Positions 9,201 to 64,000 of a stretch of 64,000 nucleotides of DNA are shown in pieces. The number at the start of each line of letters is the position of its first letter. Position 1 is the stretch's first letter. The notes beneath the pieces were generated by a model, which was not told where the DNA came from, did no database searches, and saw only the letters and a list, made by a program, of their open reading frames with translations. The stretch is from Agelas oroides. Lineage: Eukaryota > Porifera > Demospongiae > Agelasida > Agelasidae. The translations under genes and the position numbers were made by a program. The stretch spans positions 5,654,699 to 5,718,698 of the forward strand of contig OX422194.1 in NCBI GenBank assembly GCA_949130485.1, given 5' to 3'.

Positions 9201-9736
9201 GGTTCACTCACAGTTACGTTACGAGTCTGAAGCTCATTCACACTTGAGTTACTACAGTTACGTAATGGGTGTGAAGCTCATTCGCATTTTAAATTACGAG
9301 TGTGAGTGTGTTAGGATGAGGGCTTTATACTTTATACACATGTATCTATGTGGAGATGGATAAAGACGGGGTCTTTTTGACTACAGCTGTCCTTCCTCTC
9401 GCAATTAAATACACTGTGGTAGCTAGGTGGGAGATCCCCTGCGGACGGGGTTGCGGGCCTGGGTGGGTTTAAGTGTCTATTGATGCATAGTAATTGCATA
9501 TGTGGGTCTCATTTCGAGGCTCTCCCTGAGAACAAGGTTATACTGGTGAGATCCTCTGTTTGATACCTTTGAAGCTCTTGATCAACATTAGCACTGAGAG
9601 TTCCATTTCAGCTTAGTGCTGTTCTGCAAAAGCCCAAAGCTTCAAACATTGCAGCTTGCTCACACTCAATTATTATTAGATAGTACTTTGACTGACAAGG
9701 TTCAATGCAGTGATTACATCATGCTTTTCATTGCAG

Positions 9737-11243: not shown

Positions 11244-11252
11244 GGAATAGAC

Positions 11253-11860: not shown

Positions 11861-11870
11861 GGAATAGACT

Positions 11871-12512: not shown

Positions 12513-12561
12513 TAGCCTTGTTCCCAGCCTCCAATGTCACAGGAGCCTGGGAATGAGGCTA
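12513..12561. mobile_element. 49-bp palindromic micro-MITE, TAGCCTCG family
   Basis: Ends TAGCCTTGTTCCCAGCC and GCCTGGGAATGAGGCTA form inverted repeats with almost no interior. Flanking 9-mers CCACATAAA and CTACATCAA agree at 7 of 9 positions, a likely decayed target duplication. An open frame crossing this element (12534-12743) has no recognisable domain. Confidence 0.6.
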
Positions 12562-13527: not shown

Positions 13528-13571
13528 GGCCTGGGAACGAGGCTATATCATACCCAGCCTTGTTCCCAGGC
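13528..13571. mobile_element. Abutting ends of two TAGCCTCG-family elements
   Basis: A right end, GGCCTGGGAACGAGGCTA (13528-13545), is followed after 10 bp by a left end, AGCCTTGTTCCCAGGC (13556-13571). The sequence after the latter (GGGAGCACCTGATACACACT) resembles the inside of the 11253 element, so it is probably a truncated copy. Confidence 0.5.
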
Positions 13572-13813: not shown

Positions 13814-14392
13814 TAGCCTCGTTCCCAGGCTCTCCCCGCTAAGGAGGCAGCAAGCCTGGTACATTTTATTGCATGACGTCAAGGGTAGGCATGACTTAAT
13901 TATGTGGGGGTGGACTAAGCTGGGCGCCCACGCACGTTCAAGCACAAGCGTTTTCAAGACTACTACAGTCTTCTTTTCAGGTAAATATGGCTTTTGTGTG
14001 TTAGCTTCATCTTTGCAGTCAGCTATATATAGTTGTCCACATAGAACAAGTCGATATCTTGACTCAGTGGTGACAACTCAAACAACAAAGACGCTTACAA
14101 CACACAACAATCACGAAATTTCTTGCCATTCATCCTGTCAGGTGCCGTGTCTGACACTCTGAGAATCTACTACACCGGTCTACCTTGCGATTTACGGCTA
14201 CTATAGCCAGCGCTTTTTTGCCATCGTAGCTACACATGTACTTGCCTCGATCACAAGTTCCAAACTATGTGGGCTGGATTCCGTGCATGCTCACGCACAA
14301 TTAAGTCATGTCTACCTTGTGTCTACCCTTGACGTGATAAAATGTAGCAGGCTTTCCCCCTCCTTAGTGGGGAGAGCCTGGGAACGAGGCTA
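13814..14392. mobile_element. 579-bp TIR element, TAGCCTCG family
   Basis: Left end TAGCCTCGTTCCCAGGCTCT and right end AGAGCCTGGGAACGAGGCTA are inverted, and the inverted similarity continues through the AAGCCTG/CAGGCTT and TGACGTCAAGGGTAG segments for about 100 bp or more. No target duplication could be matched, so one end may be rearranged. It has no transposase frame. Confidence 0.7.
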
Positions 14393-14478: not shown

Positions 14479-14577
14479 ATGGAAAAAGAGGACCTCGCGC
14501 GGCGGGAAGCCGATCTGTCTGCAAAGCTCAAACAGCTCTTGATCCCCAAAGACCCCAACGATGGCAAGAAGATTTGA
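14479..14577 (+). pseudogene. Bacterial prfA-like (release factor 1) fragment
   Basis: A 32-codon open stretch containing ARREADLSAKLKQLLIPKDP followed by NDGKK. The segment LLxPKDPNDxKN is a conserved landmark of bacterial and organellar peptide chain release factor 1, just before the RAGTGG region, which is missing here. Local GC content is higher than in the flanks. It lies 38 bp before a DnaB-like fragment in an otherwise transposon-filled eukaryotic region. The call is from remembered family motifs. Confidence 0.45.
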
Positions 14578-14614
14578 AACTCGTGCGAAAACTTTGCGAT
14601 GGAACGGAAATTTG

Positions 14615-14776
14615 ATGGCGTCCCCAAATGCGACATCGAATGCGGTTGAACGCGCCTTGCCCCAAGCTGTGGATGTGGAACGCGCGGTGTTGGGGGCGAT
14701 GCTGATCGACAACATGGCGATCAACCGCGTGACCGAGGTCTTGGGCGATGAAACCGCGTTTACACCTACAGAAGGT
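14615..14776 (+). pseudogene. Bacterial dnaB-like (replicative helicase N-terminal) fragment
   Basis: An ATG at 14615 opens a frame with ALPQAVDVERAVLGAMLIDN followed by MAINRVTEVLGDE. This closely matches the N-terminal domain of bacterial replicative helicase DnaB (typically LPPQxxEAERAVLGAMLID...). Similarity stops where the expected FYxxxH motif should follow. The frame stays open to 15310, but the later residues look unrelated and base composition drops to that of the host flank. It is not a working helicase: the motor domain is absent. Likely a filler fragment of bacterial DNA, perhaps from a symbiont, or a chimeric assembly join. Confidence 0.55.
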
Positions 14777-15309
14777 TTTGAAGCATGCACCATCCATAGT
14801 CTAATAGGGGGGTGCAAGGTGAGTGCTGCACAACCTAGCCAGGTCACACTGCTTAATTATTGCAAGTTTTTGGAGTCTCAAATACACAAAACTATGTATG
14901 GGAACAACTTACTATTCACTTGGTGGAAAGTTGCACCAAAGGACACCATCCACAGCAAAAATCGTTATCTCTGCTATTGGCGAAACGCTATTGGGGAGGC
15001 GATCGTGTCCCTCATTCAGAACCAGCAAAACGGAGGATACCTCGAAGACGACGCGATTTCTCTACTGTTCCAAGGCGTAGGAATACCGGACTTGTTCAGT
15101 TACATAGCACAGTCCTTGCTCTTCCTCCAAGACCCGATCGACTGCTGCGTGCCATGCGTGCTCACACACGCACGACTCCAGCTGCCCTCCAACGAAGTGC
15201 TCCAAATGGAGTCTGCACGTGACGGTGAATTCATGACGTATTCGTGTTTACGCCAAAAATTAAAAAATGACCACTCCTATTGCACTTCCGGTCGCTGGCG
15301 AAACGGCTG
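14777..15309. other. Unassigned GC-rich stretch after the bacterial-like patch
   Basis: Several overlapping open frames on the plus strand, none recognised. The end (CACTTCCGG... and GACGTATTCGTG) resembles the inside of nearby DNA elements. Coding potential is undecided. Confidence 0.3.
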
Positions 15310-16828
15310 AATAGAGCCAAATGGATTGGCAACGGCAATAATTTTACGTGCAATCCTCGTTACGGTCACGTGATGCAGACGAACGCGGCAATGACTGTAA
15401 GCGCCGACTGCACGAGAGCGACAGTTATGTCTGCTTTCTGCTTCCCCAGATGTCAAGTAGTGCCTGGCAGACTGCTGCTGTTAAGGAGGAGTGTGAAACA
15501 GTCCTTGGAGTTATCAGTAGGCCTGGAGACAACCAGGACAGATCGATGTGTTCTTTGAGACTGCTGAAGCTACCTGTGCATAAGGCCAGGGAAAAGTGCA
15601 CACAATCGCTGCAGACCCCTTGTTTTGTCAGCATTGCACTTGCTAATCTACTGCTAATACTGTACCAGCAGACTTGACCTAACCTAGTGCACCGATCTTT
15701 CTAGAAAACTACTAGACTTTTCACATTATTTACACCCTTCAAGGCCTCGCACGAAACTGTGTGTTGTATTACAGATAAATAAGCCATTCTATTGCTAGCG
15801 TGTCCAAACAAAAAATAAAATTTTGCAATGCTGAAAATTTGGAATTACCGGCATAAAGAGCAGCCTTAGAGTAACTGAAAAATATGCATATTGCCTGGAT
15901 TACCTTCATTTTACATCAGAATATGGCTTTCCGAAGTTAAACGTCGTCGTACTCGTCGACGAAAAATAAAAATGCAGACAAGAATTTTGTAAATGGATGT
16001 TCTTACCAGCAGAATTGGAAAGAGGAACCAAAGCGCTTCAATTTGATGTGTGTTGTGAGGCTATTGATCAAAATCTCGACTGTGGTTGCATTCTCAAAAA
16101 AAGTTGCGCAAATTTGCGATTATTAGCAACTCCAAGCAAATAAATTGCAATACAGAAAATTTGAAATTACTGGCCTAAAGAGCAGCCTTAGGGGAACCGA
16201 AAAATATGCATATTGCCTGGATTACCTACATTTTATCTCAAGATATGGCTTTCCGATGTTAAATGCTACGTACCATTTTAATATAAAAAGCGGTTAAAAC
16301 GAAAATACAGGCCAGAATTTTTGAACTGCACGTTCTTACCAGCAGAACTTGAAAGAGGAACCAAAGCGCTTCAATTTGATGTGTGTTGTAAGGCTATTGG
16401 TCAAAATTTCGTTTGTGGTTGCGACCGCTACGCAATTTTGCGTTTGGACTCGCTACTATTACATTCTTGGCTATTGCTTGCACGTTATGACCGCTTGCAA
16501 CATGGGATAGCCTTGTTTAGTTTCCAGAAAAAACTACAAAACTATTATTTTAGCGTTTCTACGTTGCATAACAATTAATTCACAGCCAAGCATAGCACAA
16601 TTATTTACCAGAGCATGCAGATACTGTGCAATAATCGATAGATACGCTTGGACCTACCGTATAATACCCTACACAGGAGATAAGCCTGTTAGTAAGCATT
16701 TCCTGACGTGCCTGCTCACCGTAACTTCGATGGGTGTGCCGTACCAAGGATAGGACGTGACGTCATCTGCGTTTTGCCCGGGTTTGGCCGTAAATTTTTT
16801 TGCCGTTGCCAATCCATTTGGCTCTATT
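15310..16828. mobile_element. 1.5-kb TIR element with internal 322-bp duplication
   Basis: AATAGAGCCAAATGGATTGG at the left end recurs inverted at the right end (CCAATCCATTTGGCTCTATT), with about 40 bp of inverted similarity through GCAACGGCAA. Inside, a segment from about 15828 is repeated 322 bp downstream with some divergence; the shared landmarks are AAAGAGCAGCCTTA and GGAACCAAAGCGCTTCAATT. No transposase was recognised, so it is probably nonautonomous. Confidence 0.7.
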
Positions 16829-17446: not shown

Positions 17447-17742
17447 ACAAGGGGTAGTCACTTATATGTCCCGTGTAGAAGCGTTTGCGACTGGGATCAA
17501 AACTGAATCAAGCGATCAAAGCCCTTTTGGGAGGCCGATCAAGGGATCAAGGTGACCTCCGAACTGCTAAAAATCAACAATCAAGAACGCGCGGCTGCAA
17601 TTTGACCTTTGACCCTTGAAAATCAAGCGATCAAGAGCCTCAGAAGGGGACGATCAAGCGATCAAGCACACTTTTTGCCGATCAAAAACTTTGATCGCGG
17701 TCGCAAACGCTTCTACAGGCGACATAAGTGACTACCCCTTGT
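17447..17742. mobile_element. 296-bp palindromic MITE with GATCAAG-rich core
   Basis: Ends ACAAGGGGTAGTCACTTAT and the inverted counterpart ending GACTACCCCTTGT, with about 45 bp of arm including GAAGCGTTTGCGAC. The core holds about eight GATCAAG or GATCAAA motifs. It has no coding frame. Confidence 0.75.
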
Positions 17743-33344: not shown

Positions 33345-34373
33345 ATGGCTGACGAATCTCTCTCTGAAGCGTTCGTTGAAGCTCCTATTGAGGACCCTGT
33401 CCTAGCCTGCGTTGTCTCTCTTCGTGACAGACTACCTACCTGTGATGTAAGGAAGTTGATTTTGGACAATTTTGCTGTCTCTGCCATAAAAAGTGCCAAG
33501 AAGCTTTTGTGGGCCGCCCGGCAGGCCGTTCTGCGGCAGAATAAGAAGAAGCTGATCGACCGACGCGCTGCTCAACGCGCTGTTGAAGAAGTCGAATTTG
33601 AGGACCTGATCGACTTTGTGGATTGCCTCGACGAGTGTGAGAAACTACCGCTGGTCTCCGTCTCTGCCAAGGATCTCGTGTTGTTACTGGCGGCGGCGTT
33701 CAAGCCAAGGCCTCGCTCAGAGTCTACTGAAGACATAGCTGGGGTTCTGTCCAGTCATCGTGAGAACTTTGAGACAATTCAGAACAAGATTACTGTCTTA
33801 GAACGTGAGTTGCAGAGTAATATTTGTGCTGTTCAAGAAAGTGTGAATCAGGTCTCTCTGCAATTGAAGGGCCACTTTTCTGATGATCCAAGTCATTACA
33901 GGTCAGTGGGTGCCCACAGACAGACCGAGAAGGCTGGGTCTCGGGAGCACACTGACCGGTCTCATAACGTTGTTGTTTTTGGTGTGCCAGAGAGCAGGGA
34001 TTTGCTGGGTATGGAAGCATTAGTCAGTCGTGCATTTGAGTCAGTTGTTGGATGGAAGGTTACAATTACAGATTGCAGGCAAATTGGGAGATTCTCAACT
34101 GAGTCAGTAAGGAGCCGACCTTTACTCGTGAAGTTTGCCTCTGTTTGGGATCGTAGGCTACTTTTGAGCTCCAAGTACAAGCTTAAAGATTTCTCTGAAG
34201 CCAATTTGTTTGTGAGAGAAGATAGGCCACCCAATGAGCGCAAAGGATCTGCTCGACAGCAGGCTTCACAGCAGGGTGTTAGTGCTACTACTAAGTCTCT
34301 TGCTCGCCAAGGAGGTGACCCTAGTTCAGGTGCAAGGATTGACCTTGTTGACAATGGAGAGCATGTCAATTAA
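33345..34373 (+). CDS. LINE ORF1 protein (nucleic-acid-binding)
   Basis: 342-residue intact frame from ATG at 33345. The N-terminal third is charged and unrecognised. Around residues 130-180 a likely coiled coil includes NKITVLERELQSNICAVQES. The C-terminal half has NVVVFGVPESRDLLGMEALV, then FASVWDRRLLLSSKYKLKDF, an RRM-like arrangement seen in ORF1 proteins of LINEs. Such proteins bind the element RNA and chaperone it in the retrotransposition particle. The end overlaps the ORF2 start by 20 bp. Confidence 0.75.
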   Translation: MADESLSEAFVEAPIEDPVLACVVSLRDRLPTCDVRKLILDNFAVSAIKSAKKLLWAARQAVLRQNKKKLIDRRAAQRAVEEVEFEDLIDFVDCLDECEKLPLVSVSAKDLVLLLAAAFKPRPRSESTEDIAGVLSSHRENFETIQNKITVLERELQSNICAVQESVNQVSLQLKGHFSDDPSHYRSVGAHRQTEKAGSREHTDRSHNVVVFGVPESRDLLGMEALVSRAFESVVGWKVTITDCRQIGRFSTESVRSRPLLVKFASVWDRRLLLSSKYKLKDFSEANLFVREDRPPNERKGSARQQASQQGVSATTKSLARQGGDPSSGARIDLVDNGEHVN

Positions 34374-36991
34374 CATTGTGTCGTATAATTGCCATGGCTT
34401 CCGTAACAGTAGTGGGTATGTAAAAGAATTATTAGAGCAGTGTGACATACTTTGTCTTCAGGAACACTGGCTCCTCGATCAACAGCTCTGTGATTTGAAC
34501 ATCTGTCAAAATTTTGCAGTGACTGGAGTCAGTGGAATGGCATCTGATTGTGTAATTCATGGTCGCCCTTATGGTGGATGTGCTGTTTATGTTAGGAATA
34601 CTTTGTCTTCATCCATTTCACATTGTCAGGTAGTCTCCAGGAGATTTTGTGGCATTAAGGTTAAGCTGGCTGGAGGGCGCATCCTTTTGGTGGTGTGCGC
34701 ATATTTACCCTTTGACAATGGTCATGCCTCCGACTCTCTCAAGTTTAGTGAAGTGCTTTGTGAATTGGAAGCATTTCTGAGCACTCAATGTTATGACCTG
34801 CTGGCTGTGGTTGGAGATTTTAATGTTGACTTTACACGTACTAATCGTCCTCGAACTGGTGAATTGCTACGTTTCATGCAGGCTACTTGTTTAGAGGCTT
34901 CAGACCTCCACTTCCCCTCCATCCAATTTACATATGAGAGTGATAATGGGTTAGCTCGTTCTTGGGTGGATCACTTTTTGTTTTCAACCTCAGCCTCCCA
35001 CCTGGTTAGGTATGTTGATATAGTGTGTTCTGGTGACAATCTGTCTGATCACTTGCCTTTGGCTGTATCCTTAGACTGTCAGCATGTAGTGTCTTCTTCT
35101 GTTGGTTCCTGTTCAACCCAGGCTAGGCGTGTAGCTTGGCACAAGGCGACCTCGGATCAGATTAATGCTTACCAATCCTGTGTGAGGGAGTCTTATAAGC
35201 AGTTTGTTATACCTGACCATGTGTTAAATTGCTCTGATCCTCGTTGCAAAGTGCACTGTGACTATCTCTCTACCCTCTGTCGTGATTTGGTCTGTTGTTT
35301 GGTCTCTTGTGCTGATGCTACCATTCCTCCGGCATCTCATAGAAAACGGGTAGCTGGTTGGAAAGATGAAATTCCCCCATTTAAGGAGAGGTCTCTGTTT
35401 TGGAATCGGCTATGGTATGAGAGTGGATGTCCTCAGGCTGGGGTGTTGTTTCAGCTGAGAAAACATGCCAAAACTCGGTATAAGTATGCTGTGAGAAGGG
35501 TTATGAGAAATCAAGATAAGTTGAGGCGTGCTAAGCTGGCTGATGCTCTCTCTCATGGCAAGTCTAGGCATTTCTGGCAGGAAGTGCGAAGTTGCAGTGG
35601 TAGGAAGCAGGTTACCCCTCACTCTGTTGATGGTGTCTGTGGCAATGAGAACTTGGTTGAACATTGGGCTGATAAATTCAAGAATCTGTTTACATCTTCC
35701 AACCCTAATTCCTCGAACTTGTTGGCACAGGCTCTGGCAGACCTTGAAGTTTCTGTTGAGGACATGGGCTCTCTTTCATTCTCAGCTGACTCTGTCTGTG
35801 CTGCTTTGAAAAAGTTGAAACATGGTAAGTCAGAAGGAGGGTCCTTGACATCTGACCACTTAATTTTTGCTCCTCGTTGTTTTGCAGAAGTGCTTGCTCC
35901 TGTTTTCACTTGTCTAGTACGGCACGGGTACATGCCATCCGTGTTTAGAGATGCTGTTATTCTTCCAATCCCAAAGGGTGGTAATACGGATCTGTCACAA
36001 TCTGCTAACTACAGAGGTATTGCCCTAGCTTCCTGTTTCAGCAAGCTTCTGGAGTATTGCAGCTGTTTGCTCTCCTCTCACCTTCAATTTGGTTTCAAAC
36101 CAGGGTTGTCTACCACATTGTGCACTGGTGTGCTGAAGGCAACTATTTCCCGTTATCTCGCAGGTGGATCTTGTGTGTATGGCTGCCTTGTTGATGCCTC
36201 CAAGGCTTTTGACAGTGTTGACCATACTCTACTTTTAGAGAAGTTGCTGAAAAGGGGCCTGCCTATTTGTGTTGTTCGTTTTCTGCTCACATGGTATCAG
36301 ACGCAACGTTTAAGGGTGAGTTGGAATGGTGTCCAATCTGGCGCATTTCCTGTTTCTCGAGGAGTCCGACAGGGAGGTGTAATTTCTCCCATTCTGTTCG
36401 CTCTGTATATTTGATGATTTGCTGTATGAACTTGAACAGTCTGGGGTTGGTTGTTTCTGTGATGACCAGTTTGTGGGTGCACTTGCTTATGCTGATGACC
36501 TTACATTGTTAGCTCCCAGCCCTGCTGCTCTTCGGAGGTTGTTGTTCATTTGTGAGCAGTTTGGAGCCGCCAACATGTTGAAGTTTAATCCAGATAAAAC
36601 CCAATGTATCAAATTTTCACATAGTTGTACTGTTGGTGCTTGTAATTTTCGTTTTTGTGGCAAGTCAATTTTTTGTGCGAAGTCCGTTGTGCACCTAGGT
36701 CATGTTCTTACCTGTAATTTGATGGATAATGCTGACATTCTTAGATGCTCTCGTGATTTCTGTAAGCAAGTAAATGGTATCCTGTTTAGGTTTGGCTTTT
36801 GTGATCCAGTTGTACAGACTAGACTGCTCCTTAATTACTGTATGTCTCTCTATGGCTGTGCTTTGTGGTCTCTTAATTGTAGTGAAATTAAACACTTAGA
36901 TGTGAGTCTTAATAAGTGTTTACGACGTATCTGGTCACTTCCCCCTAATAGCCATACTGGTATTGTTCATTGTGTTTCTGGTTGTGTATAA
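34354..36991 (+). pseudogene. LINE ORF2: AP-endonuclease and reverse transcriptase, frameshifted
   Basis: The ATG at 34354 overlaps the end of ORF1. The N-terminal endonuclease has the expected motifs in order: VSYNCHGF, CLQEHWLL, VVGDFNVDF, SWVDHFLFS and SDHLPLAV. The reverse transcriptase follows with ANYRGIALASCFSKLLE, LVDASKAFDSVDH, RGVRQGGVISPILFALYI and, after a frame change near 36411, AYADDLTLLAPS containing the YADD catalytic pair. The frame change looks like one extra T before the conserved DD. A second frame change lies close to 36960-36990, after which the C-terminal tail is open to 37262. The element is therefore probably recently inactivated. Confidence 0.85.
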
Positions 36992-39287: not shown

Positions 39288-39340
39288 TAGCTTCGTTCTC
39301 AGGCCACCTCCTCCTCCCACATGGCCTGGTAATGAGGCTA
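39288..39340. mobile_element. 53-bp micro-MITE, TAGCCTCG family
   Basis: Ends TAGCTTCGTTCTCAGGCC and GGCCTGGTAATGAGGCTA are inverted. The flanking 9-mers no longer match well, so it is an older copy inside a larger element. Confidence 0.6.
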
Positions 39341-39453: not shown

Positions 39454-39510
39454 TAACCTCGTCCCCAGGCCACATTCCTTCTCCCACATGTTGGCTCAGG
39501 GACGAGGCTA
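39454..39510. mobile_element. 57-bp micro-MITE, TAGCCTCG family
   Basis: Ends TAACCTCGTCCCCAGGCCA and CTCAGGGACGAGGCTA are inverted. Target duplication is not clear. Confidence 0.55.
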
Positions 39511-39714: not shown

Positions 39715-40455
39715 AATACACGTAAGTGTAATCACAACACCAGAACTTGAAACGGCGTTGACAGTTTAGTAGTTGTTCCAGGCATGTATTAAATAATTAG
39801 GCCTATGTGTAATATAGGCAGCTAGAACCTGATGAAGGGCCAACCACTCAATTAGGCCTATGTGTAATATAGCCAGCTAGAACCTGATGAAGGGCCAACC
39901 ACTCTTCCTACCAAACTTTGTGAAACCAATTTCAGTTGTCAATCACATGACGACTGACCAGCTGCAGCACAGAAACTACTATCCTACTGACGACTGACCA
40001 TCCTAGCTTTACAGTTCAAAGGCTATTTTTAGTGTAGCTACAAGTAGGCAGCTGAATGCAGCGCCTTACCTACGTAGTGTTCATAAGCCTTGCCCAATGC
40101 CGGCGGGAGGAAAAGACCGCGACAGCCAAGCGTATTGCCCGCTGGCGATTTCGCTTGTGTACTAGTCTCGCTTCCAGACCAATGACCGTGGTCTTTGGTC
40201 TGGGAACGAGACTTCGTGTGCGCATGCGTACAAAATTAGAAAATGGCGTCCTAAGCAACGCACAGCAGCCTCAGAGTGTTGTGAATGGCTTTTGTTGACC
40301 AGGGTGAACTTGAAGCTATGAAGACGCTGAGTGGTCGTAGAGCTCTGCGCTGTGATAAGCATCAGTTTCGTGCTAAAATTACGGTGAGTGCTTGAACCGT
40401 TTTTGAGTTATTGTTGTTTGAACAAAAGTCGTAACGAAGAAAGAAAGAAAGAAAG
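39715..40455. repeat. Intron duplication, copy 1, with a possible captured exon
   Basis: Diverged direct counterpart of about 41790-42475. It contains two 55-bp tandem copies (39796-39905) sharing GCTAGAACCTGATGAAGG, a TAGTCTCG-type palindrome (40163-40214), and a 33-codon frame from ATG 40285 to 40383 ending exactly at a GTGAGT donor. Copy 2 has lost that ATG. Confidence 0.6.
40163..40214. mobile_element. 52-bp micro-MITE, TAGTCTCG variant
   Basis: TAGTCTCGCTTCCAGACC and GGTCTGGGAACGAGACTT are inverted; flanking 9-mers match at 6 of 9. The same insertion is present in the duplicated copy near 42192-42241, so it predates the duplication. Confidence 0.6.
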
Positions 40456-45405: not shown

Positions 45406-47567
45406 GTAAGTGAACAGTCTTGTTGTACCACTTGCCAGTTGAGTTATGCAGATTTATTTTTTCTTAATCTCTGTTATCCCTAGCTAGTACATGAATGAAT
45501 ACATGCCAGCAATTCATAGCCACGAAAGGCATTGTGTGTACTGTGGTAGACAGTCACACAGTGTGCACTGCCTACACCACACAAAGCTAAACTTAGTGAT
45601 TTTTATGCTATAGCAATAGAATCCTGTAGAATAAAATTTAAGTCATTAGAGTTCTGTGGCTGTGGCAATCGATTGTGTACAGGTTCATCCCCTCTCAAGC
45701 TATGGATAGTAGTAGAACCTATCATCAAATGAAATGCTCAAAAGGCCTGCTCTAGATTAGTCTGAGGCCTCTATAAGTCATATTAGTCATTATCGAGTGC
45801 TTTCATGAGCACCAGAACCGTTAACATCAGTGGACAGCATTGATGAAGTACCTGACTAGCAAATCATCTATGTTCTGACTGACTGACATTCTTCAGCCAG
45901 GCAATGCAAAATGCAACATGTAGCTACTACTGGGTATTGTACTTACCACTTATTTTTTCTCAAAACACTCAAGCTATTCAGCGATTCTCAGGCGCTACCA
46001 TACTTATGCTTGCTACTATTTATAAATATAAGCTATGCGATGAAACCAAGAGATTACAGGATTTAGATACCCGCTGAAACCACTTGCCACACGAGTGGCC
46101 AACCAACCCTTTCTCTCCTTAGCAACAAAACTGTGTAGTATTTTTCACTTTAGTTCCAAAACTGCCTAGCAATGGCTACAGTTCAAATTCTCAAATAGTG
46201 AGCTCTCTTTCAAGCTGTTCATTTACCTTGCGGCGATTCAACATTGTACTCGCTCAGTGACGCTCACTAGTGATTGGAATTCAAATTCAGAGCACCTGAG
46301 AATGAGACCAAACTCTACCACCATCATGAACTTCCTGGTGAGTGCATTGTATGGCTCCCACTGAAACTGTAGACAAACTCCGTGTGAACTGGTCAAGTTC
46401 AAGACTACTGCTGTTGAGTTCAGCTTACATCTTTAGACTGTAGCCATTGCCATATAACCGCTAATGAGAACTCGCTGCTATATTTGTGTAGTGCTACATG
46501 GTATTAAAATGCAATTTCAGTCACAGGTGGCATATGTTGAATTTACGTACAGGTCCATAAGTCGGTCTACCTGCAATTGAGCAATCAGATTTAAGTATTT
46601 AATTCAGCTATAGTATAATAGAAATTACATCACTGTGAGCACAATTGAGCGTTTACTTTCAGGGCAATTAAGGCATGGGATTTAATTTTCACATAATCGC
46701 TACGTAAAGCTATATCATTGTCATATCCTGGTGAATGAGTTCTTTAGCCTGTAAGCTGTACGTAGGACAGAAGCGTGGTGTTTGTATGCCGTCAGCGGTT
46801 AAACACTTCAACTGCAAGTGACCTTTTTACTCTGTACTGCCAACCGTGCACATGAGAACTGTTTGTGTCGACGCAGAACAGAAGAACATCAAATAAAACA
46901 ATCGGACATGGCTCAAAGGATTGCTTACCATCAGAGAATACCAAAACTTTGTGTTGGTGGTGCTTCTGTAGCATGTGTAGTGTCTTGCCGCTATCCAATA
47001 TTTTTGGCACCATGCAGGAATACTGTAGGAGGCTCCTGGTTCTTCCACATATAGTACCTTTTAGTTCAATTAGTATAGCAAGTTTGGTAGCGAGCAACCG
47101 TTGTCTTCTGCTCTGCCTTTGTCATATGTTAGCATAATTGATATTAGTGGTAATTGATAGCCATGCCGCAAACACGGTTTCCACGGTACCATAGGTATAG
47201 CTTAGGGCTTCATATATACACAAATCAATTTTATTTACATACACATTATTAATTTTTATAAATATAGTGTAAAAATTACTTGTCCCATGGCTTAGTTCGC
47301 CTGAGCTAAGCTTACTGTGGTATAAAGAAGACAACAGTTGTCACAAATTATGTCTGCAAGAGCCAAGATCAGGTGGTATAATGCAAAACATGGAAATAAA
47401 ATATATACATGCTAAGGCTCCAACGAATAGCCGAATATTCGACTATTCATTGTGAATTTACTGTTTGACGAGGAAAACGGAAGCCTAATATTCGGAGGTG
47501 GAGCGTCCCGCTGACTCAGATCATGCCACGCTTATGTCTCATGCCCAGCCCGTGCGCAGCAGGGTGG
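45406..47567. other. Gene B intron, no gene seen
   Basis: About 2.1 kb without a convincing exon. Overlapping open frames at 46792-47137 occur on both strands and match nothing recognised. Confidence 0.35.
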
Positions 47568-47613
47568 TAGCCTCGTACCCAGGCCCCACCCAAAAGTCCT
47601 GGGTACGAGGCTA
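47568..47613. mobile_element. 46-bp micro-MITE, TAGCCTCG family, perfect 9-bp TSD
   Basis: TAGCCTCGTACCCAGGCCCC and TCCTGGGTACGAGGCTA make up nearly the whole element. Both flanks (47559-47567 and 47614-47622) read GCAGGGTGG, an exact 9-bp target duplication. Confidence 0.9.
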
Positions 47614-47822
47614 GCAGGGTGGGGTCTGAGTCACGCTAGCTCAAAAATCATGATGGCTGCTAGTACTAGTACTAGCAGAATGCGTTGCATTGTGGGGCGA
47701 GCCTGAGCAAGCAGTGGCATGAAGGAGAGAAGAGCAGCAATCTGGTTGGTTATTGCTTTTGCACTTACGACTTATGTAACCCGGGTAGGCGGAGGATGTG
47801 CATGTGGCGTGTATTCGCACTC

Positions 47823-49762
47823 GGGGCGCACTAAGTTCACAACATCTGGTGCCCATGACGTAATTGCAATTACTTCACCACTGAAGAATGACCTTTGTAC
47901 CGAAGAGCTACGAGATAGAGCCAAGACTCAAGTCACTGGAGGAGGTCAGTCTACCACTTAGAAAAGGTAGATTCGGTTGTTTATTTTTTAGGTAGAGAAA
48001 GGGAACTCTGGAGCTGACTCTTGCATAAAATGTCACCTTTGGAGGCTGTTCTAGTCTTGGATGAAAGTCCATGCTGACAGCCTGGTATGCTTTTATGAAT
48101 GCACCATCTGGAGCTATACTGCTAAGGGAGGCATACATAGCTAACACTAGAAATGATACAAGTGGAACCTCAGGTGATTCTGACAAGTGCAACAGCTTCA
48201 TTCAAGTTCACATACAAGGCAATGAGTGATGTGTGGAAGACCTCCCCCTCCCACACATGCACACACACACACACGCACACGAGCAGCTATGTTGATGAGA
48301 CTTTTTCCTAAGATCATATGATACACAAAACTGTAGCCTCGTTGCCAGGCCCCTGTTCAGCTTTCCATCACTTTCAGTACATACTGCAAGAAACAAAATG
48401 CAGTCTGAGAGCAGGACTACACCAACTCTTCATAAAATTAAAGGGAGCATAATCAACAGAACTAATCTGGTGTTCTATTGCTACGTCACACAAATTAAGA
48501 ATTCTGATCTTGAACTGTCAGACGTAGCCTGCAGACTCTCCAACAAAGCATCTGCAGAAAGAATGAACACCAAACATTATCCTAACAGGGTGATCCTCAT
48601 TTTCAGTCCTTCTCCCACACATTAACCATACAGAATAAAAACATAGGGAGTGGAAACAAATTAGCCATGCCTGAGGCCTTCATAACTGGATCAAAGAACT
48701 ATTTTACGTCACATTTGGCATACTAAACTATAGTTACATCAGATGCACTGGATGTATGAGCCTGTATACAGTGAAAACAACCTAAACTGTGTTCTACAAA
48801 AACTTGACACTGTCAAAGAGGGCATTTTGTTAGAACTGGTTTTGAACATTTATATAATTATGCCACTTGGGCCAACTAGAGGCAAAAATTTGTTCTTGGA
48901 ATGATACATTCTCAGATCCCAGACTTCAGAGATCTAAGCGCGGTAACAACAGTGACAGATCATCAGAGCAACAAGAAATGCAGACGCTGGGAAAGTTTTT
49001 GATACCCGAGACTATTGTAGTACACAGGGATAGAAAATCAATAAAGATGTAATGTTTCGTTTGCTGAATCACGGGTAGAAGTCTGTTTGGAGTTGAATTT
49101 CAGGTATGTTGATTATCAACCATTAGCGCACCTATCCTACAGTTCTTATGTCTGCTGGAGATCTGTGTGCGCAACAAGAGTGAAACGTTTCGTAAGTGTC
49201 CTAGTATCAATTAACGCCTCTATACCTAAAGGATTTCAGATCAACTGTGGCATTGACCTTTGCTACATCAAAAGTGCTGTATCTGAGACATTGCCCTTGT
49301 ACTCATAATTATGAAAACTATATGTGACATTCAAGGTGGTGCAATTCACATCACAAATTACTTCAACAAGCAACAAAGTTGGAGCCAATGGAGGTGGAGG
49401 CACGGACGTGAGGCTTTTAAATGCTTAATAACCCTCAAGTGTCCAATGCAGATCCCACTTCTGTCAGTTTCCAAGGGTATTTCACTAGCTATATCTGGAC
49501 CTAAGAATTTATAACGTCAGCATGGACTTTCATCAAAGACTCTCAGCCTCCCAAGGTGACATTTTATGCAAGAGTCAGCTCCAGAGTCCCCTTTCTCTAC
49601 CTAAAAAATAAGCAACCGAATCTACCTTTTCTAAGTGGTAGACTGACCTCGTCCAGTGACTTGGCTCTATCTCGTAGCTCTTCGGTACAAAGGTCATTCT
49701 TCTGTGGTGATGTAATTGCAATTACGTCATGGGTACCAGATGTTGTGAACTTAGTGCGCCCC
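47823..49762. mobile_element. 1940-bp GGGGCGCAC TIR element with 10-bp TSD
   Basis: GGGGCGCACTAAGTTCACAA at the left end and TTGTGAACTTAGTGCGCCCC at the right end; the inverted arms extend about 250 bp. The flanks 47813-47822 and 49763-49772 are both ATTCGCACTC, a 9-10-bp target duplication consistent with a Mutator-like element. No transposase frame was recognised. Confidence 0.85.
48255..48281. repeat. CA microsatellite
   Basis: Short (AC)n run with one CG interruption. Confidence 0.9.
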
Positions 49763-49848
49763 ATTCGCACTCATCTGATCTCCGGTGCCTCAGCAGTTAG
49801 CCTCGTTCCCAGGCCCGAATACGGGACAAGACTACTCAGCAGTAGTCT

Positions 49849-49933
49849 TAGCCTCGTTCTCAGGCCCCGCCCAGCTCTCCATCCCATTTTCTGTACCGGA
49901 ATGCTGGGCGGGGCCTGGGAACGCGGCTCAGTA
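49849..49933. mobile_element. 85-bp micro-MITE, TAGCCTCG family, perfect 9-bp TSD
   Basis: TAGCCTCGTTCTCAGGCCCC and GGGGCCTGGGAACGCGGCT are inverted, with CGCCCAGC/GCTGGGCG continuing the stem. Both flanks read CAGTAGTCT (49840-49848 and 49934-49942). The extreme right end is slightly altered. Confidence 0.8.
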
Positions 49934-50159
49934 CAGTAGTCTCGCGAGACTACTGCAAGTCGATCTAAAATGTGGAAGTTTTTCCACGTAAGTGGAGATA
50001 AAACTGTTACTTGTCACATCTGCCAAGCAATCATGGCATCCTGCAGAAGACCCTCTCAAGGCCTGGGAACGAGGCTAACTGCTGAGGCACCGGAGATCAG
50101 ATGAGTGCGAATACACGCCACATGCACATCCTCCGCCTACCCGGGTTACATAAGTCGTA

Positions 50160-54320: not shown

Positions 54321-54570
54321 CATGTGAACAATTACAAGAATTTTGTTCAGCAAGTGCGGAAGGTAATGGCAAGCAAAGGTTATGAGTTAAATGTATCAAA
54401 ATTGGAAGTTCTACACTATAGTCACTGCCACTATGTATCGTTGTCCACTAAGTGGATAATGGATGTATGAAAGTTGGTTGCACTAGCTCTGTATAGTAGT
54501 GCTAAAGGACACATCTGTTCCCAGAAAGCAATAACATGAGCTATCTAACAGTCACTCTAGATGGACTTTT
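54321..54570. other. Gene B intron between MITE and minisatellite
   Basis: No exon, membrane segment or repeat was recognised. Confidence 0.4.
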
Positions 54571-56310
54571 AATAGCAGGTTTTGATGTTCCATTCTAATA
54601 GCAGGTTTTGATGTTCCACTCTAATAGCAGGTTTTTGATGTTCCACTCTAATAGCAGGTTTTTGATGTTCCACTCTAATAGCAGGTTTTGATGTTCCACT
54701 CTAATAGCAGGTTTTGATGTTCCACTCTAATAGCAGGTTTTGATGTTCCACTCTAATAGCAGGTTTTTGATGTTCCACTCTAATAGCAGGTTTTGATGTT
54801 CCACTCTAATAGCAGGTTTTGATGTTCCACTCTAATAGCAGGTTTTTGATGTTCCACTCTAATAGCAGGTTTTTGATGTTCCACTCTAATAGCAGGTTTT
54901 TGATGTTCCACTCTAATAGCAGGTTTTTGATGTTCCACTCTAATAGCAGGTTTTTGATGTTCCACTCTAATAGCAGGTTTTTGATGTTCCACTCTAATAG
55001 CAGGTTTTTGATGTTCCACTCTAATAGCAGGTTTTTGATGTTCCACTCTAATAGCAGGTTTTTGATGTTCCACTCTAATAGCAGGTTTTTGATGTTCCAC
55101 TCTAATAGCAGGTTTTTGATGTTCCACTCTAATAGCAGGTTTTTGATGTTCCACTCTAATAGCAGGTTTTTGATGTTCCACTCTAATAGCAGGTTTTTGA
55201 TGTTCCACTCTAATAGCAGGTTTTTGATGTTCCACTCTAATAGCAGGTTTTTGATGTTCCACTCTAATAGCAGGTTTTTGATGTTCCACTCTAATAGCAG
55301 GTTTTTGATGTTCCACTCTAATAGCAGGTTTTTGATGTTCCACTCTAATAGCAGGTTTTTGATGTTCCACTCTAATAGCAGGTTTTTGATGTTCCACTCT
55401 AATAGCAGGTTTTTGATGTTCCACTCTAATAGCAGGTTTTTGATGTTCCACTCTAATAGCAGGTTTTTGATGTTCCACTCTAATAGCAGGTTTTTGATGT
55501 TCCACTCTAATAGCAGGTTTTTGATGTTCCACTCTAATAGCAGGTTTTTGATGTTCCACTCTAATAGCAGGTTTTTGATGTTCCACTCTAATAGCAGGTT
55601 TTTGATGTTCCACTCTAATAGCAGGTTTTTGATGTTCCACTCTAATAGCAGGTTTTTGATGTTCCACTCTAATAGCAGGTTTTTGATGTTCCACTCTAAT
55701 AGCAGGTTTTTGATGTTCCACTCTAATAGCAGGTTTTTGATGTTCCACTCTAATAGCAGGTTTTTGATGTTCCACTCTAATAGCAGGTTTTTGATGTTCC
55801 ACTCTAATAGCAGGTTTTTGATGTTCCACTCTAATAGCAGGTTTTTGATGTTCCACTCTAATAGCAGGTTTTTGATGTTCCACTCTAATAGCAGGTTTTT
55901 GATGTTCCACTCTAATAGCAGGTTTTTGATGTTCCACTCTAATAGCAGGTTTTTGATGTTCCACTCTAATAGCAGGTTTTTGATGTTCCACTCTAATAGC
56001 AGGTTTTTGATGTTCCACTCTAATAGCAGGTTTTTGATGTTCCACTCTAATAGCAGGTTTTTGATGTTCCACTCTAATAGCAGGTTTTTGATGTTCCACT
56101 CTAATAGCAGGTTTTTGATGTTCCACTCTAATAGCAGGTTTTTGATGTTCCACTCTAATAGCAGGTTTTTGATGTTCCACTCTAATAGCAGGTTTTTGAT
56201 GTTCCACTCTAATAGCAGGTTTTTGATGTTCCACTCTAATAGCAGGTTTTTGATGTTCCACTCTAATAGCAGGTTTTTGATGTTCCACTCTAATAGCAGG
56301 TTTTTGATGT
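54571..56310. repeat. 27-bp minisatellite, about 64 copies
   Basis: Unit GCAGGTTTTTGATGTTCCAC plus TCTAATA. The first copies are irregular (26-bp units with four T, and CATTCT for CACTCT). From about 54840 on there are about 55 copies with no visible mismatch. Because 27 is divisible by three, the array is open in several frames on both strands (for example MFHSNSRFL repeated), which is an artefact. It lies within or just after the 3' part of gene B. Confidence 0.97.
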
Positions 56311-59157: not shown

Positions 59158-62100
59158 TCAAGTTCCATATCGGACAGGTGGATGTCTACTTCGATCACTC
59201 CGTTTGAGTGGTTTGATTGGAAGTTCATTGGAAGTAGTCGGAGTTTCGGCAGGTGAGGCACTTTGTTCTCGCTCGGGTGTATTGGAAGTAACTGTTGGAG
59301 TTTCAGAGTTTGTCATTCCAACAGGTGAGGTGCTTTGCTCTTGTTCAGGTGCATGGTACCATGTAGGAGCATTTATACCACTGTAGCGCCACAGTCGATT
59401 TCTGTGCACAACTTTTGGTTTAGCTTTTGGTCCCAATTGAATTCTGTAAACCAAATCATTGATTCGTTTGGTGACGATATAGGGACCTTGCCATGGGCGT
59501 TGCAACTTTGGAGTTAGGCCTTTCTTTCTCTGGGGATTGTGTAGCCACACAGCTTCTCCAGCTTCTAATGGCTGATATTCTAGCAGTGAGTCATATCGCT
59601 GTTTCATTCTATTTGACATGAGTTGCATGTGTCCACGAGCAAACTCATGAACTCTCTCAAGTTGTTCCTGCAATGTACTTGCATAGTTCGTTGCAGTCTG
59701 AGGTGGCTCGTCTTCAGGCCTGCCAAACATTAGGTCTATTGGCATTTTCAGCTCTCTTCCCAGCATCATTCTTGCAGGTGAACAACTAGTTGTGTCATGA
59801 GAGGCTGAACGATACGCCATTAGAAGGAAGGGAATGTGTTCATCCCAATCCTTTTGGTTGTGATCAGCAAACTTCAACAGTTGTGCTTCCAATGTCCGGT
59901 TGAAACGTTCAACCATACCGTCTGATTGTGGGTGGTATGGAGTGGTTCTTGTCTTTTTAATGCCCAGCAGCCGACACATTTCAGAAAATAATTGTGACTC
60001 AAAGTTTCGACCTTGGTCAGAATGTATTAGCAGGGGCACACCAAACCGACATACGAACTCTCTCACAAGTAGCTCAGCTACTGTGGTGGCTTCCTGATTG
60101 GGCATTGGATATGCTTCGACCCACTTGGTGAAGTAATCTGCGACAATCAGAATGTACTTGTTTCCGGTTTCTGTAATTGGCAGTGGTCCCAGCACATCTA
60201 TGGCAATGCGCTCCATAGGCGAGCCAACATTGTACTTCGCCATTGGTGCTTTGATCTTTTTCTGTGGTCCTCGTTTTTGAGCACAAAGATCACAATTGCG
60301 GCACCATTCTCGGACATCTTGTTGGCACTGGACCCAGTAGAATCTTTCCCTGACACGACTCAGGGTCTTGGCAACTCCCAAGTGTCCAGCCGTTTGGGTA
60401 TTGTGTAGCTGTTGTAAAACTTCAGACCTTAGTGATTTGGGAAGTATCAGCTGCTTGACAATGGCATCCCCAGATGGAGTCTCCCAGAGGCGATACAACA
60501 CACCATTATAAAGTCGGAGACTCTGCCACTGAGCACAGTAGACTTTGGTGTTGTCACTGTGTGGAGCAATCTCCTCCCATGGAGGTCTGTGACTGCTTCT
60601 CTCCAACCACTCTAGCACAGGCTTGACATCTTGATCGTTTAGTTGTGCCTGTCTTAGCTCTTCAGGAGACCGGTTACCAGCAGCACCAGTCAGCAGATTG
60701 AGTGCAGCAACATAAATCTGAGAGCTGGCACATGCATCTCGAGACTTGGCTGGAGCTTGAGGTTCCTCCTGTGACTCTGCTTTGTCACAGTGGTCAGATA
60801 ACACCTGGGTAGTGGTATATCGAGTCTGGGTGGCACCTGGCTCCGTAGACATCTTCAAGTCTTCCTGTGAATCCAATCTTTCACAGTGCTTACAGGTGTC
60901 TCCCCAACATGGTCGTCTTGATAGGGCATCTGCATTACCATGTCTAGCCCCCGGTCGGTGTTCAATGGTGAAGTTGTACTGCTGAAGGCTTTCAATCCAC
61001 CTGGCAATCTGGCCCTCTGGGTGGCGGAAATTCAGCAGCCAACGGAGAGCTGAGTGGTCGGTACGAATTAGAAACGTTCTCCCATAGAGATAAGCATGAA
61101 AATGCTTAATGGCTTTCACTACTGCTAACAGCTCTCGCCGAGTGACACAGTAACGGCGTTCTTGTGTACTCAATGGACGACTGAAGTAGGCGATCACTCT
61201 CTCCTCTTCTTCTGGAACGTTCTGAGACAGCACACCTCCGATGCCAGTTGCACTTGCATCTGTATCAAGTATGAATAAAGTGGCTGGATCAGGGTAGACC
61301 AAGACAGGAGCCTCTGTCAGAGCCTGCTTCAGCCTTGTGAAAGCATCTTCTGCTTCTGGAGTCCATGAAAATGGAGAAGTAGTGGCACACTGATTTAGAG
61401 GATGTGCAATTTCAGCAAATGCAGGGACGAAGCGACGGTAGTATGAACAAAGTCCCAGAAAGCTTTTGACTTCTGTGACTGTAGCAGGTCTTGGCCAGGT
61501 TTTGACAACTTCAATTTTTCCGGGATCCGGAGAAATTCCTTGTTCACTCACCACATGCCCCAAATATTTGACTCTTCTCTGAAACAGGATGCATTTCGCT
61601 GGTGAGAGTTTCAGCTTTGCTTTTCTCAACCGCTCAAACACTTGGCACAGGTTTGCAATTTGTTGGGAGAAGGAGTGTCCTGGCACAATGATGTCATCCA
61701 AGTAGACTAGGGCCACGGATATGGGCAGACCGAAAAGTACCTGCTCCATCAATCTCTCAAATGTTGCTGGGGCGTTGCAGAGCCCAAATGGCATGACTTT
61801 AAATTGCCACAACCCACTTCCAGTTGAGAAAGCTGTCTTCTCTTTAGCAGAGTCATCCAACGGGACTTGCCAATAGCCACTCTTGAGATCCAGTGTAGAA
61901 AAGAATTTTGCTCCGGAGAGTGCTTCAATGGTGTCATCTATGCGTGGCAATGGGTAAGAATCCTTGTGAGTGACGTCGTTGAGTTTGCGGTAGTCCACGC
62001 AAAATCTGGTACTCCCATCTTTCTTGTTCACTAATACGATAGGTGATGACCAGGGACTGGCGGATGGCTCAATTACATCCAGTTCTCTCATTTCCTGAAC

Positions 62101-62928
62101 AGATCTTTCAGCTTCCTCTCTTTTTGCCAGGGGAAGTCTCCTTAATGGCTGCCGAATAGGTGGTGCTTCCCCAGTGTGGATTTGGTGCTTTATGAGGTCA
62201 GTGCATCCAAGGTCATGTGGACCTGCAGAAAAGATATCTGAGTATTCATTCAACAGTTTGTGTACTTCTTGACACTCAGTCTCTTCCAGTGCAGCGACAG
62301 AACGTTCATACAGTTCCTTCAAATGAGGGGGAAGCTGCATCAAGATCTTGGCATTCTGAGTGCACCCAGTCAACATCCCTTTCTCAATATCTGCCCTCGA
62401 AGCAAGGACGGAGTGGATGGTTTCACAGCGAGCCAGCTCTGTGCCCTTGTTGATCACCTGCTGCTGGTTAGAGAGATTCATCACCCTCAGAGGCACCTCC
62501 TTTCTCTGAAGATCAACCAATGTTCTTGCAACCAGAAGGCTTTCAAACGAGCATGTTGGTTGTTCCAATAATCCCCAACGATAGTCAACTTGGGCTCCAT
62601 CCACTCTCACTGGAACCACTGTTTCTGCAAGAGGGGGTAGACACACACCTTCTGTCAACACAGCCTTGTAGCAATTAGGCTCCTTACTGGCTTTCATCTT
62701 CTTCAGAGGAATTTCCTCTTCTCCAACAATCAGCGATCCATCTTTGAGGTTCACCTGACAACTGTGGGTCTGTAGAAAGTCAAGTCCAAGGATGCATTCA
62801 TCATGAATGTCTGCAACCCAGAGTTCTTGAGGTAACACCAGAGACCCAATGCCCAGCTGCAACTGGCCTCTTCCGTGAATGGGAGCATGCTCTCCAGTCA
62901 GTTCATAGACAGCTATCAACAGGCTCAA
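59158..62928 (-). CDS. Ty3/gypsy pol polyprotein
   Basis: Long open frame of 1256 residues. In order: end of the aspartic protease (ECILGLDFL); reverse transcriptase with VLVNKKDGSTRFCVDYRKLN and VALVYLDDIIVPG; RNase H with FILDTDASATGIGGVLSQ; integrase with an HHCC zinc-binding region (HNTQTAGHLGVAK and CRNCDLCAQK) and catalytic segments DVLGPLPITETGNKYILIVA, HSDQGRNFES and YHPQSDGMVERFNRTL; a C-terminal GPY-type segment (PWQGPYIVTKRINDLVYRIQ). No chromodomain is evident. This layout (RT-RH-IN) places it in Ty3/gypsy. Confidence 0.92.
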   Translation of the reverse strand: MSLLIAVYELTGEHAPIHGRGQLQLGIGSLVLPQELWVADIHDECILGLDFLQTHSCQVNLKDGSLIVGEEEIPLKKMKASKEPNCYKAVLTEGVCLPPLAETVVPVRVDGAQVDYRWGLLEQPTCSFESLLVARTLVDLQRKEVPLRVMNLSNQQQVINKGTELARCETIHSVLASRADIEKGMLTGCTQNAKILMQLPPHLKELYERSVAALEETECQEVHKLLNEYSDIFSAGPHDLGCTDLIKHQIHTGEAPPIRQPLRRLPLAKREEAERSVQEMRELDVIEPSASPWSSPIVLVNKKDGSTRFCVDYRKLNDVTHKDSYPLPRIDDTIEALSGAKFFSTLDLKSGYWQVPLDDSAKEKTAFSTGSGLWQFKVMPFGLCNAPATFERLMEQVLFGLPISVALVYLDDIIVPGHSFSQQIANLCQVFERLRKAKLKLSPAKCILFQRRVKYLGHVVSEQGISPDPGKIEVVKTWPRPATVTEVKSFLGLCSYYRRFVPAFAEIAHPLNQCATTSPFSWTPEAEDAFTRLKQALTEAPVLVYPDPATLFILDTDASATGIGGVLSQNVPEEEERVIAYFSRPLSTQERRYCVTRRELLAVVKAIKHFHAYLYGRTFLIRTDHSALRWLLNFRHPEGQIARWIESLQQYNFTIEHRPGARHGNADALSRRPCWGDTCKHCERLDSQEDLKMSTEPGATQTRYTTTQVLSDHCDKAESQEEPQAPAKSRDACASSQIYVAALNLLTGAAGNRSPEELRQAQLNDQDVKPVLEWLERSSHRPPWEEIAPHSDNTKVYCAQWQSLRLYNGVLYRLWETPSGDAIVKQLILPKSLRSEVLQQLHNTQTAGHLGVAKTLSRVRERFYWVQCQQDVREWCRNCDLCAQKRGPQKKIKAPMAKYNVGSPMERIAIDVLGPLPITETGNKYILIVADYFTKWVEAYPMPNQEATTVAELLVREFVCRFGVPLLIHSDQGRNFESQLFSEMCRLLGIKKTRTTPYHPQSDGMVERFNRTLEAQLLKFADHNQKDWDEHIPFLLMAYRSASHDTTSCSPARMMLGRELKMPIDLMFGRPEDEPPQTATNYASTLQEQLERVHEFARGHMQLMSNRMKQRYDSLLEYQPLEAGEAVWLHNPQRKKGLTPKLQRPWQGPYIVTKRINDLVYRIQLGPKAKPKVVHRNRLWRYSGINAPTWYHAPEQEQSTSPVGMTNSETPTVTSNTPEREQSASPAETPTTSNELPIKPLKRSDRSRHPPVRYGT

Positions 62929-63129
62929 TCAGCTTCTGGCTTGCTGCACCCAGGACATCAGGTCTGACAATAGAAATGTTGCTGCCCGTGTCCACGGTGA
63001 TTTCACAGGTCCTCCCATTGACAGTACCTGAAACAGTGAGATTATCAGCAACAGCATAAATAGAGCCAGTTTTAAAAATGTTTTTAGGGGCTTTAAAATT
63101 ACTAGCCGAGCTTTGCCCCGCAAGCTCGG

Positions 63130-64000
63130 CTACTGCTCGTTTCCCGACTGGGAAACCTCAGTCTCAGCAGGATGACTCCTCCGCTTAGGACACTCTCGCC
63201 TCTGGTGGCCCCTCTCCTTGCACTCCCAGCAGACCAAGTTACTCCTGTCAGACTGGTTCCTCTCCTTCCTGGGCGGGGGGAACTGCCGTGGCCTGCTCGG
63301 TCCTTTGGTGACTTGTCGGAGAGCATCCACCAACTGCTGCAGAACATCACCAGTCTGCTCCTTGGCCCCCTGGTTAGTCATCCTACACTGTACAGGGTGT
63401 TTCTCTTCCAGCTGAGCCTCCCGCACAAACCTGGCCTTCTGTTTGCTCGCCAATTGATAGGATTCTAGCTCTAGAGCTGTCCCAAGAGCATCCCTCAGTG
63501 TGGCAGGCTTGTTCTGGCGAATGCGGAGTCGCATATCTTCATCCGGTAGAGCGTCTACAAACTGGTCTTTTGCCAGCACCTCCACCATAGATTCAGCTGC
63601 CTCAGGATAGGCCAGACGCACGAGATGCTCAACATCCTCTGCGAGCTCTGCAAGACTCTCATCTCTGCGACGGGTTCTAGCTTTCAACCGCATCCGATTG
63701 AGTTCTGTCTGGTGTGACAACCCAAAACGAGTGTCCAGGGCAGTAGTCAAGGCTTCATAACTTCCGCGCTGTTCAGGGGGTAGGTTAGTCAGCACTGTTG
63801 CAGCTGGCCCCCTCAGGCTGATGGCCAGATAAGCTGCTTTTTCTGCGTCACTCCATCTGTTCATCATCGCCAACAGCTCAAACTGTGTCCGGTAGGCATC
63901 CCAGGCAAGTTTTCCATCAAACGGAGCAGGTCGCTGCTGCTGGCCGACAGGGGTAGCAGCAGCTCCTCCTCCTCGGGTTTCCGCATCTCCGTAGGGCCCG
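63130..64000 (-). CDS. Ty3/gypsy gag, partial
   Basis: Open frame entering from the right edge. It contains a capsid-like region with WSDAEKAAYLAISLRGPAAT and LDTRFGLSHQTELNRMRLKA, and near its end a single CCHC zinc knuckle, CWECKERGHQRREC, typical of nucleocapsid. The protease part lies between this frame and pol; families of this kind use read-through or frame change to link gag and pol. Confidence 0.85.
   Translation of the reverse strand, partial: GPYGDAETRGGGAAATPVGQQQRPAPFDGKLAWDAYRTQFELLAMMNRWSDAEKAAYLAISLRGPAATVLTNLPPEQRGSYEALTTALDTRFGLSHQTELNRMRLKARTRRRDESLAELAEDVEHLVRLAYPEAAESMVEVLAKDQFVDALPDEDMRLRIRQNKPATLRDALGTALELESYQLASKQKARFVREAQLEEKHPVQCRMTNQGAKEQTGDVLQQLVDALRQVTKGPSRPRQFPPPRKERNQSDRSNLVCWECKERGHQRRECPKRRSHPAETEVSQSGNEQ

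Follow-up and report, generated by a model that had tools for sequence, protein, structure and literature searches.

The window (the whole stretch of Agelas oroides DNA that we analyzed, 64,000 nt) contains at 47568-47613 a 46-bp element that consists of TAGCCTCGTACCCAGG, 14 bp, and CCTGGGTACGAGGCTA. A first-pass annotation had placed this palindrome between exact direct copies of a 9-mer, and it was right: GCAGGGTGG is present, unchanged, on each side. It had also reported similar termini elsewhere in the window. The 17-bp end does recur, with 18 matches in the window at three or fewer mismatches versus 0.09 expected from shuffled sequences. The copies in the window are:

11253-11860: 608-bp element with diverged ends; exact duplication GGAATAGAC at 11244-11252 and 11861-11869
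12513-12561: 49-bp element; duplication matching at 7 of 9 positions (CCACATAAA / CTACATCAA)
13529-13571: two outward-facing ends, 13529-13545 and 13555-13571, separated by 9 bp (TATCATACC)
13814-14392: 579-bp foldback member with 57-nt arms, 91% complementary; direct duplication not found
39288-39340: 53-bp member with matching ends and no clear duplication
39454-39510: 57-bp member with matching ends; flanks agree at 5 of 9 positions (a decayed duplication or none)
40163-40214: 52-bp member with ends of a sister type (TAGTCTCG...CAGAC) and no clear duplication
47559-47567: left target duplication GCAGGGTGG, exact copy
47568-47613: element of 46 bp, A variant, whose 16-bp inverted ends have 14 bp between them
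47614-47622: right target duplication GCAGGGTGG, exact copy
48334-48350, plus strand: lone end with no recognized partner
49798-50077: outer pair of exact ends, whose flanks are an inverted, not a direct, repeat
49849-49933: 85-bp element inside 49798-50077; exact duplication CAGTAGTCT at 49840-49848 and 49934-49942

The exact 9-mers that had been reported around 11253-11860 and 49849-49933 are both there, although the right end of the latter element has a 4-bp insertion. Another of the reported termini, at 13528, is the right-hand end in the outward-facing pair, and three of the reported sites (13814-14392, 39288-39340, and 39454-39510) have no clear duplication. The outward-facing ends have exactly 9 bp between them and may be adjacent insertions with one common duplication; a second such pair occurs in our sample of flanks (L044, see below). 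The flanks of 49798-50077 form arms of 53 nt (49763-49815 and 50060-50112) that are 100% complementary.

The window has other features as well. A 249-amino-acid open frame (14561-15310, plus strand) adjoins the element at 13814-14392; its residues 33-64 match the N-terminal domain of the bacterial DnaB helicase (PF00772, E = 3.8e-5), and this may be transferred or symbiont DNA. Within 1-9252, internal repeat arrays come back four times at a period of 2,258 bp, which looks like four tandem units of ~2.26 kb. There is a 27-bp minisatellite at 54570-56310 (~65 copies, 99% identity). A non-LTR frame (endonuclease and reverse transcriptase) lies at 34234-36414, and a Gypsy-type LTR element (pol and gag frames) lies at 59158-63873.

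The window sits in contig C12 of a 259.3-Mb assembly, and we searched the whole assembly for ends. With at most one mismatch, TAGCCTCGTTCCCAGGC occurs 36,358 times (17,811 forward and 18,547 reverse), and the reversed-pattern control occurs 0 times. The first-pass annotation had suggested a genome-wide search for inverted pairs of the end. At a spacing of 0-30 bp, we found 299 exact pairs of the T variant and 297 of the A variant, which is a one-letter variant (reversed-pattern controls, 0). The sequence of the 17-bp end forms an imperfect dyad (GCCTCGTTCCCAGGC). In a sister end, TAGTCTCGTNCCCAGAC, the paired positions 4 and 16 are both changed, and this form has 5,226 exact copies, as compared to 683 and 722 for the forms with a single change. 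The dyad may thus matter for binding by the putative transposase. An exact 9-bp duplication flanks one member with sister ends (L128 3512-3843, 332 bp). At C1:3270065-3270612, ten sister ends, TAGTCTCGTCCCCAGAC, follow each other at a spacing of exactly 59 bp, so that the end of an element has become a tandem repeat.

To survey sizes, we took 28 exact T-variant ends on contig C1 (27 distinct flanks, as two share a flank): the first 8 listed, with 1.5 kb downstream, and 20 that were hand-picked at steps, with ~0.4 kb downstream. The hand-picked set skipped two places that were already known as tiny pairs, and up to 5 mismatches were allowed in the second end. Thirteen of the 28 pair up with a duplication, giving elements of 57, 61, 66, 74, 75, 76, 90, 97, 101, 103, 250, 364, and 449 bp (10 of the 13 are 103 bp or less); one other is a doubtful pair (99 bp), and 14 have no acceptable partner in the stretch that was read. 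Small size is thus common in the family rather than an oddity. The largest single elements with a duplication are 831 and 833 bp, and these are foldbacks with arms of 404-409 bp (95% and 85%); other long members carry shorter arms. The smallest members are 32 bp and consist of two 16-bp ends fused directly to each other. This form occurs 10 times among the 50 listed of the 56 A-variant pairs with interiors of 0-10 bp and 3 times in the T variant, and it thus probably has two or more origins. The family had been described as spanning 46 to about 600 bp; it is indeed one family, and its range is wider, with members of 32 bp elsewhere in the genome and members above 600 bp. The copies of 32-64 bp are too short to code, and we analyzed members of up to 833 bp as DNA.

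To examine target duplications, we used the first 50 listed T-variant pairs (contigs C1-C4) and the first 50 listed A-variant pairs (C1-C2). Pooled with the window element, these are 101 copies; 8 were dropped because of shared flanks, which leaves 93 tiny copies (32-64 bp). Because both ends had to be exact for a copy to be included, the sample may lean toward young copies. With duplicates still included, exact matches between the flanks of the 50 T-variant pairs are found for 25 pairs at an offset of 9 bp and for 0-3 pairs at any of the other offsets in the range 2-14; in the 50 A-variant pairs, there are 24 at 9 bp, 4 at 8 bp, and 0-2 elsewhere. Flank identity is also maximal at offset 9 (0.807 and 0.729 in the two sets, versus 0.21-0.31 at the other offsets given). 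After removing duplicates, 79 of the 93 copies have a target duplication of 8-10 bp: 66 have 9 bp (at most 2 mismatches), 10 have 8 bp (at most 1), and 3 have 10 bp (at most 2). If the right flanks are permuted (200 times), then 0.91, 0.17, and 0.08 copies are expected for 9, 8, and 10 bp, or ~1.2 in all. The remaining copies are one doubtful 11-bp case (a palindromic target), two with inverted flanks, and 11 with no duplication. Nine of the ten 8-bp cases belong to the A variant, and the 9-bp targets show a weak preference (61 targets). Duplications of 9 bp had been proposed for these elements; most are, but 8 and 10 bp occur too. It had also been stated that genome-wide copies without duplications would speak against the proposal, and in our sample most tiny copies have them. 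Together, the shuffles, the reversed-pattern controls, and the permuted flanks exclude a chance origin.

If the elements inserted into these targets, then related sites without the element should have a single copy of the duplication. We built 108 queries from elements of 30-1000 bp whose duplication has at most one mismatch (duplicates kept) by joining the two flanks so that a single duplication copy remained, compared them with the sequence gathered for this analysis, and set aside matches to the query's own locus or its duplicate. The proposal had also been said to fall if there were no polymorphic or orthologous empty sites; related empty sites do exist, as paralogs from a single genome rather than alleles. 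For six elements, we found a related empty site that has the duplication once and aligns without a gap across the junction:

Window 39363-39190: empty site for L098 (54 bp), 92.5%
Window 16195-16372, plus strand: empty site for L104 (62 bp), 90.4%
Window 17580-17734, minus strand: empty site for L054 (55 bp), 81.5%
L005: empty site for L100 (57 bp, 8-bp duplication), 83%, with gaps further out
L135: empty site for L132 (400 bp), 98.4%
L015: empty site for L022 (386 bp), 90.9%

L022 and L066 also contain related empty sites for L054 (82-86% across all three, including the window). The neighborhood that serves as the empty site for L098, 39190-39363, itself contains the 53-bp member at 39288-39340. 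The match of L049 to L068 is weaker (79%), and we did not count L109 and L144 (which match poorly at the junction or have gaps there or close by) or L031 (short). The flanks and the empty sites show that these elements inserted with duplication of the target. Terminal inverted repeats, a target duplication of narrow length, short size, and high copy number make them MITEs, and the long inverted arms that fill most of the 831- and 833-bp members make the family a foldback family.

The interiors of the tiny copies vary. The 93 sites have 92 different interiors, which form 86 clusters at one edit or less and 72 clusters at 2 edits. In contrast, a 32-base stretch from the center of the 831-bp form has 94 copies in the genome at up to 2 mismatches, some of them in local arrays (control, 0), and the same arms are found at 831-833, 97, 60, and 48 bp. 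Larger elements that shrank when they inserted, or later, explain this better than a tiny master copy that spread, and the first-pass annotation is not supported where its wording, very small transposons, implies that the copies moved at that size. Small size is not associated with decay of the duplication (rho = -0.007 across 79 elements), which rejects slow, progressive erosion, in which smaller copies would be older; the deletion seems to have been a single, early step. Among the 50 listed smallest pairs, the interiors that recur are the empty one, CCACGTGG, CCGTTAACGG, and CCGG, which are perfect palindromes, and CCACATGG, which is one CpG-to-TpG step from CCACGTGG. Four of 7 palindromic interiors recur versus 1 of 20 others (Fisher p = 0.009; 50 listed of 56 pairs with interiors of 0-10 bp); the other 19 non-palindromic interiors are single. 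Because self-complementary words are direct microhomologies of the two arms, collapse between the arms would yield palindromic products repeatedly. L072 contains a 94-bp element (59-152) with an exact duplication, AGTCAGGCA; by eye, its interior carries the end in inverted orientation together with 18 bp from the right flank of this element, and we take this as a sign that fold-back template switching followed insertion. L112 (101-209) similarly has an inverted copy of the end and adjoining target sequence in its interior, as expected for remodeling after insertion.

We also looked for a transposase. The genome has 119 hits to MULE domains and 23 to Merlin domains. Within 2-2.5 kb on each side, none of 16 MULE loci (8 + 8, of the 119 hits) and none of 10 Merlin loci (of the 23 hits) has a transposase that is framed by the family's ends. 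Three Merlin loci (L132, L135, and L138) have family elements nearby only. Near one MULE locus (L126), there is a single correctly oriented end 1.6 kb downstream, with no partner in the stretch that was read, and in L068 the 831-bp element adjoins a MULE domain and does not enclose it. On C1 (5.44-6.24 Mb), a variant end lies ~1.5 kb downstream of six duplicated MULE hits, but it is oriented as the left end of another element, so we do not take it as a link. We then scanned the same loci for any inverted ends with 8-10-bp repeats. Five of the 10 Merlin loci have long inverted ends that differ from those of the family, and in one of these loci (L139) the 8-bp target repeat is convincing; for the 16 MULE loci, the scan gave nothing of this quality. 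The Merlin results imply that the scan can work, yet it says little about MULEs. In L133, L138, and L139, the long inverted ends run through GGATATCC, and the outer ends of L139, GGATCATGTAGGATATCC, are flanked by the 8-bp repeat CAATACTC. The ends of the family are thus not those of the Merlin loci that we read. Tc1/mariner elements duplicate TA, and exact matches at offset 2 are found for just 3 of 50 and 2 of 50 pairs. hAT and P elements, as a rule, make 8-bp duplications, and here 9 bp predominates (66 of 79). The observed duplications of 8-10 bp do match those of MULEs. Given these duplications and the foldback build, a MULE transposase is our best guess.

We propose that these elements are an abundant, non-autonomous family of foldback MITEs, probably Mutator-like, and that most of the tiny copies are collapsed remnants, or bare ends. 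We put the probability of this reading at about two in three. A transposase acting in trans would recognize the ~17-bp end, itself an imperfect dyad, and would insert the element by a staggered cut of 8-10 bp, mostly 9 bp. The long-armed forms (831-833 bp in one subfamily) would be the amplified, mobile ones, as the many copies of one center suggest. Most of the 32-64-bp copies would be derived from such forms by loss of the arms from the center outwards, often with joining at short self-complementary words, and with one independent deletion per insertion. The deletion might be due to misrepair after excision (abortive gap repair) or to fold-back slippage; both fit. Both ends and the target duplication would persist, which would leave bare ends.

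Two observations speak against collapse: identical copies of 32 and 40 bp lie at unrelated targets, as would also be expected from tiny mobile masters, and 11 of the 93 tiny copies show no duplication. In the A variant, all five of the 32-bp copies that we examined (of ten) have a duplication of 8 or 9 bp (four exact, one with one mismatch), and the 40-bp CCACGTGG element, which like the 32-bp element has ten copies among the 50 listed pairs, has an exact 9-bp duplication in three of the four copies that we read (L073, L081, and L165; none in L164). There are also similar, though non-identical, 61-62-bp copies at several targets (L092, L104, L110, L114, and L117), and smaller copies are not older. 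So, copies of 32-64 bp could be true micro-transposons that were excised and inserted at that size, with perfect palindromes working best and the ends perhaps bound in trans or as a cruciform. We consider this unlikely. It does not explain 92 distinct interiors at 93 sites, and recurrence is nearly confined to perfect palindromes (among the 50 listed smallest pairs), which repeated collapse predicts too. The spread of a tiny master would give many copies of one interior, as for MADE1, which has a high copy number, a TA duplication, and a single consensus. Also, 32 bp of stiff DNA with two 16-bp ends would be hard to synapse. The narrower idea that the perfect 32-40-bp palindromes of two abutting ends are themselves mobile would require synapsis in trans or an extruded cruciform, and we doubt it slightly more; such palindromes would be shorter than any nuclear transposon that we know of.

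A different question is whether our family was moved by a transposase other than a MULE, such as Merlin, hAT, P, or an undescribed DDE enzyme. This is a real possibility, if not the one that we favor. It would account for the lack of family ends around the 16 MULE loci that we inspected, but 103 of the MULE hits lie outside that set, and the stretches that we read would miss any ends at distances above 2-2.5 kb. The Merlin loci are not framed by family ends either, and five of them have ends of their own; the predominance of 9-bp duplications argues against hAT and P; and mosquito MULEs combine duplications of 8-9 bp with foldback ends and a terminal motif that is palindromic (PMC5225508). Finally, hairpins could arise by replication slippage or template switching, with no transposition at all and with flanking repeats by chance. 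The strong palindromy is consistent with this, as are the inverted flanks of 49798-50077 in the window, L072, and L112. However, 79 of 93 copies with direct duplications of 8-10 bp (null, ~1.2) and empty sites with one copy make this explanation very hard to believe. Both cases of inverted flanks in the sample (L072 and L112) lie in longer elements that have direct duplications, so we do not treat inverted 9-bp flanks as a class of their own.

The tiny copies are a natural data set on how palindromic elements lose their interiors, as each of them would record a separate deletion junction, framed by the duplicated target. If any tiny copy did move at that size, it would challenge what is expected of end pairing by transposases on DNA that is far below the persistence length. 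Copies of 32-64 bp probably escape the usual annotation, given its size cut-offs. In the open-licence literature, as judged by titles and the openings of abstracts (on MITEs, foldback elements, Mutator, the shortest elements, and sponges), we did not find a description of this family.

Among known systems, and going by the parts of the sources that we compared, the repetitive hairpin-forming elements of sponge mitochondria are also short, repeated hairpins, but they are mitochondrial (PMC2800124; this comparison does not extend to target duplication). Muta1 and other MULEs from Aedes resemble our family in their 8-9-bp duplications, foldback ends, and palindromic terminal motif, and they have given rise to many non-autonomous derivatives, in which ends are truncated and interiors vary (PMC5225508). 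Unlike our family, their transposase is known and they have 145-bp ends with subterminal tandem repeats; the description that we compared has no derivatives of tens of bp (PMC5225508). The Tm1 Mutator/Foldback family of root-knot nematodes has 9-bp duplications as well, and most of its members are foldback or MITE-like, but its MITE-like members average 431 bp with 39 and 22 copies (PMC3169594), as compared to tens of thousands of ends here. MADE1, a human mariner MITE of 80 bp with two 37-bp ends around 6 bp, is similarly a near-perfect palindrome that is nearly all end (PMC1784062). Our copies differ in being 32-64 bp, in their 8-10-bp duplications, and in having a different interior in nearly every copy that we sampled. 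In kind, then, this is a foldback MITE; what is new, and we think remarkable, is the tiny size, the apparent single deletion per copy, and the fused 32-bp form. With hundreds of nuclear copies of 32-64 bp, most of which, in our sample, retain an intact target duplication, the lower bound on the size of recognizable transposons falls well below the 80 bp of MADE1.
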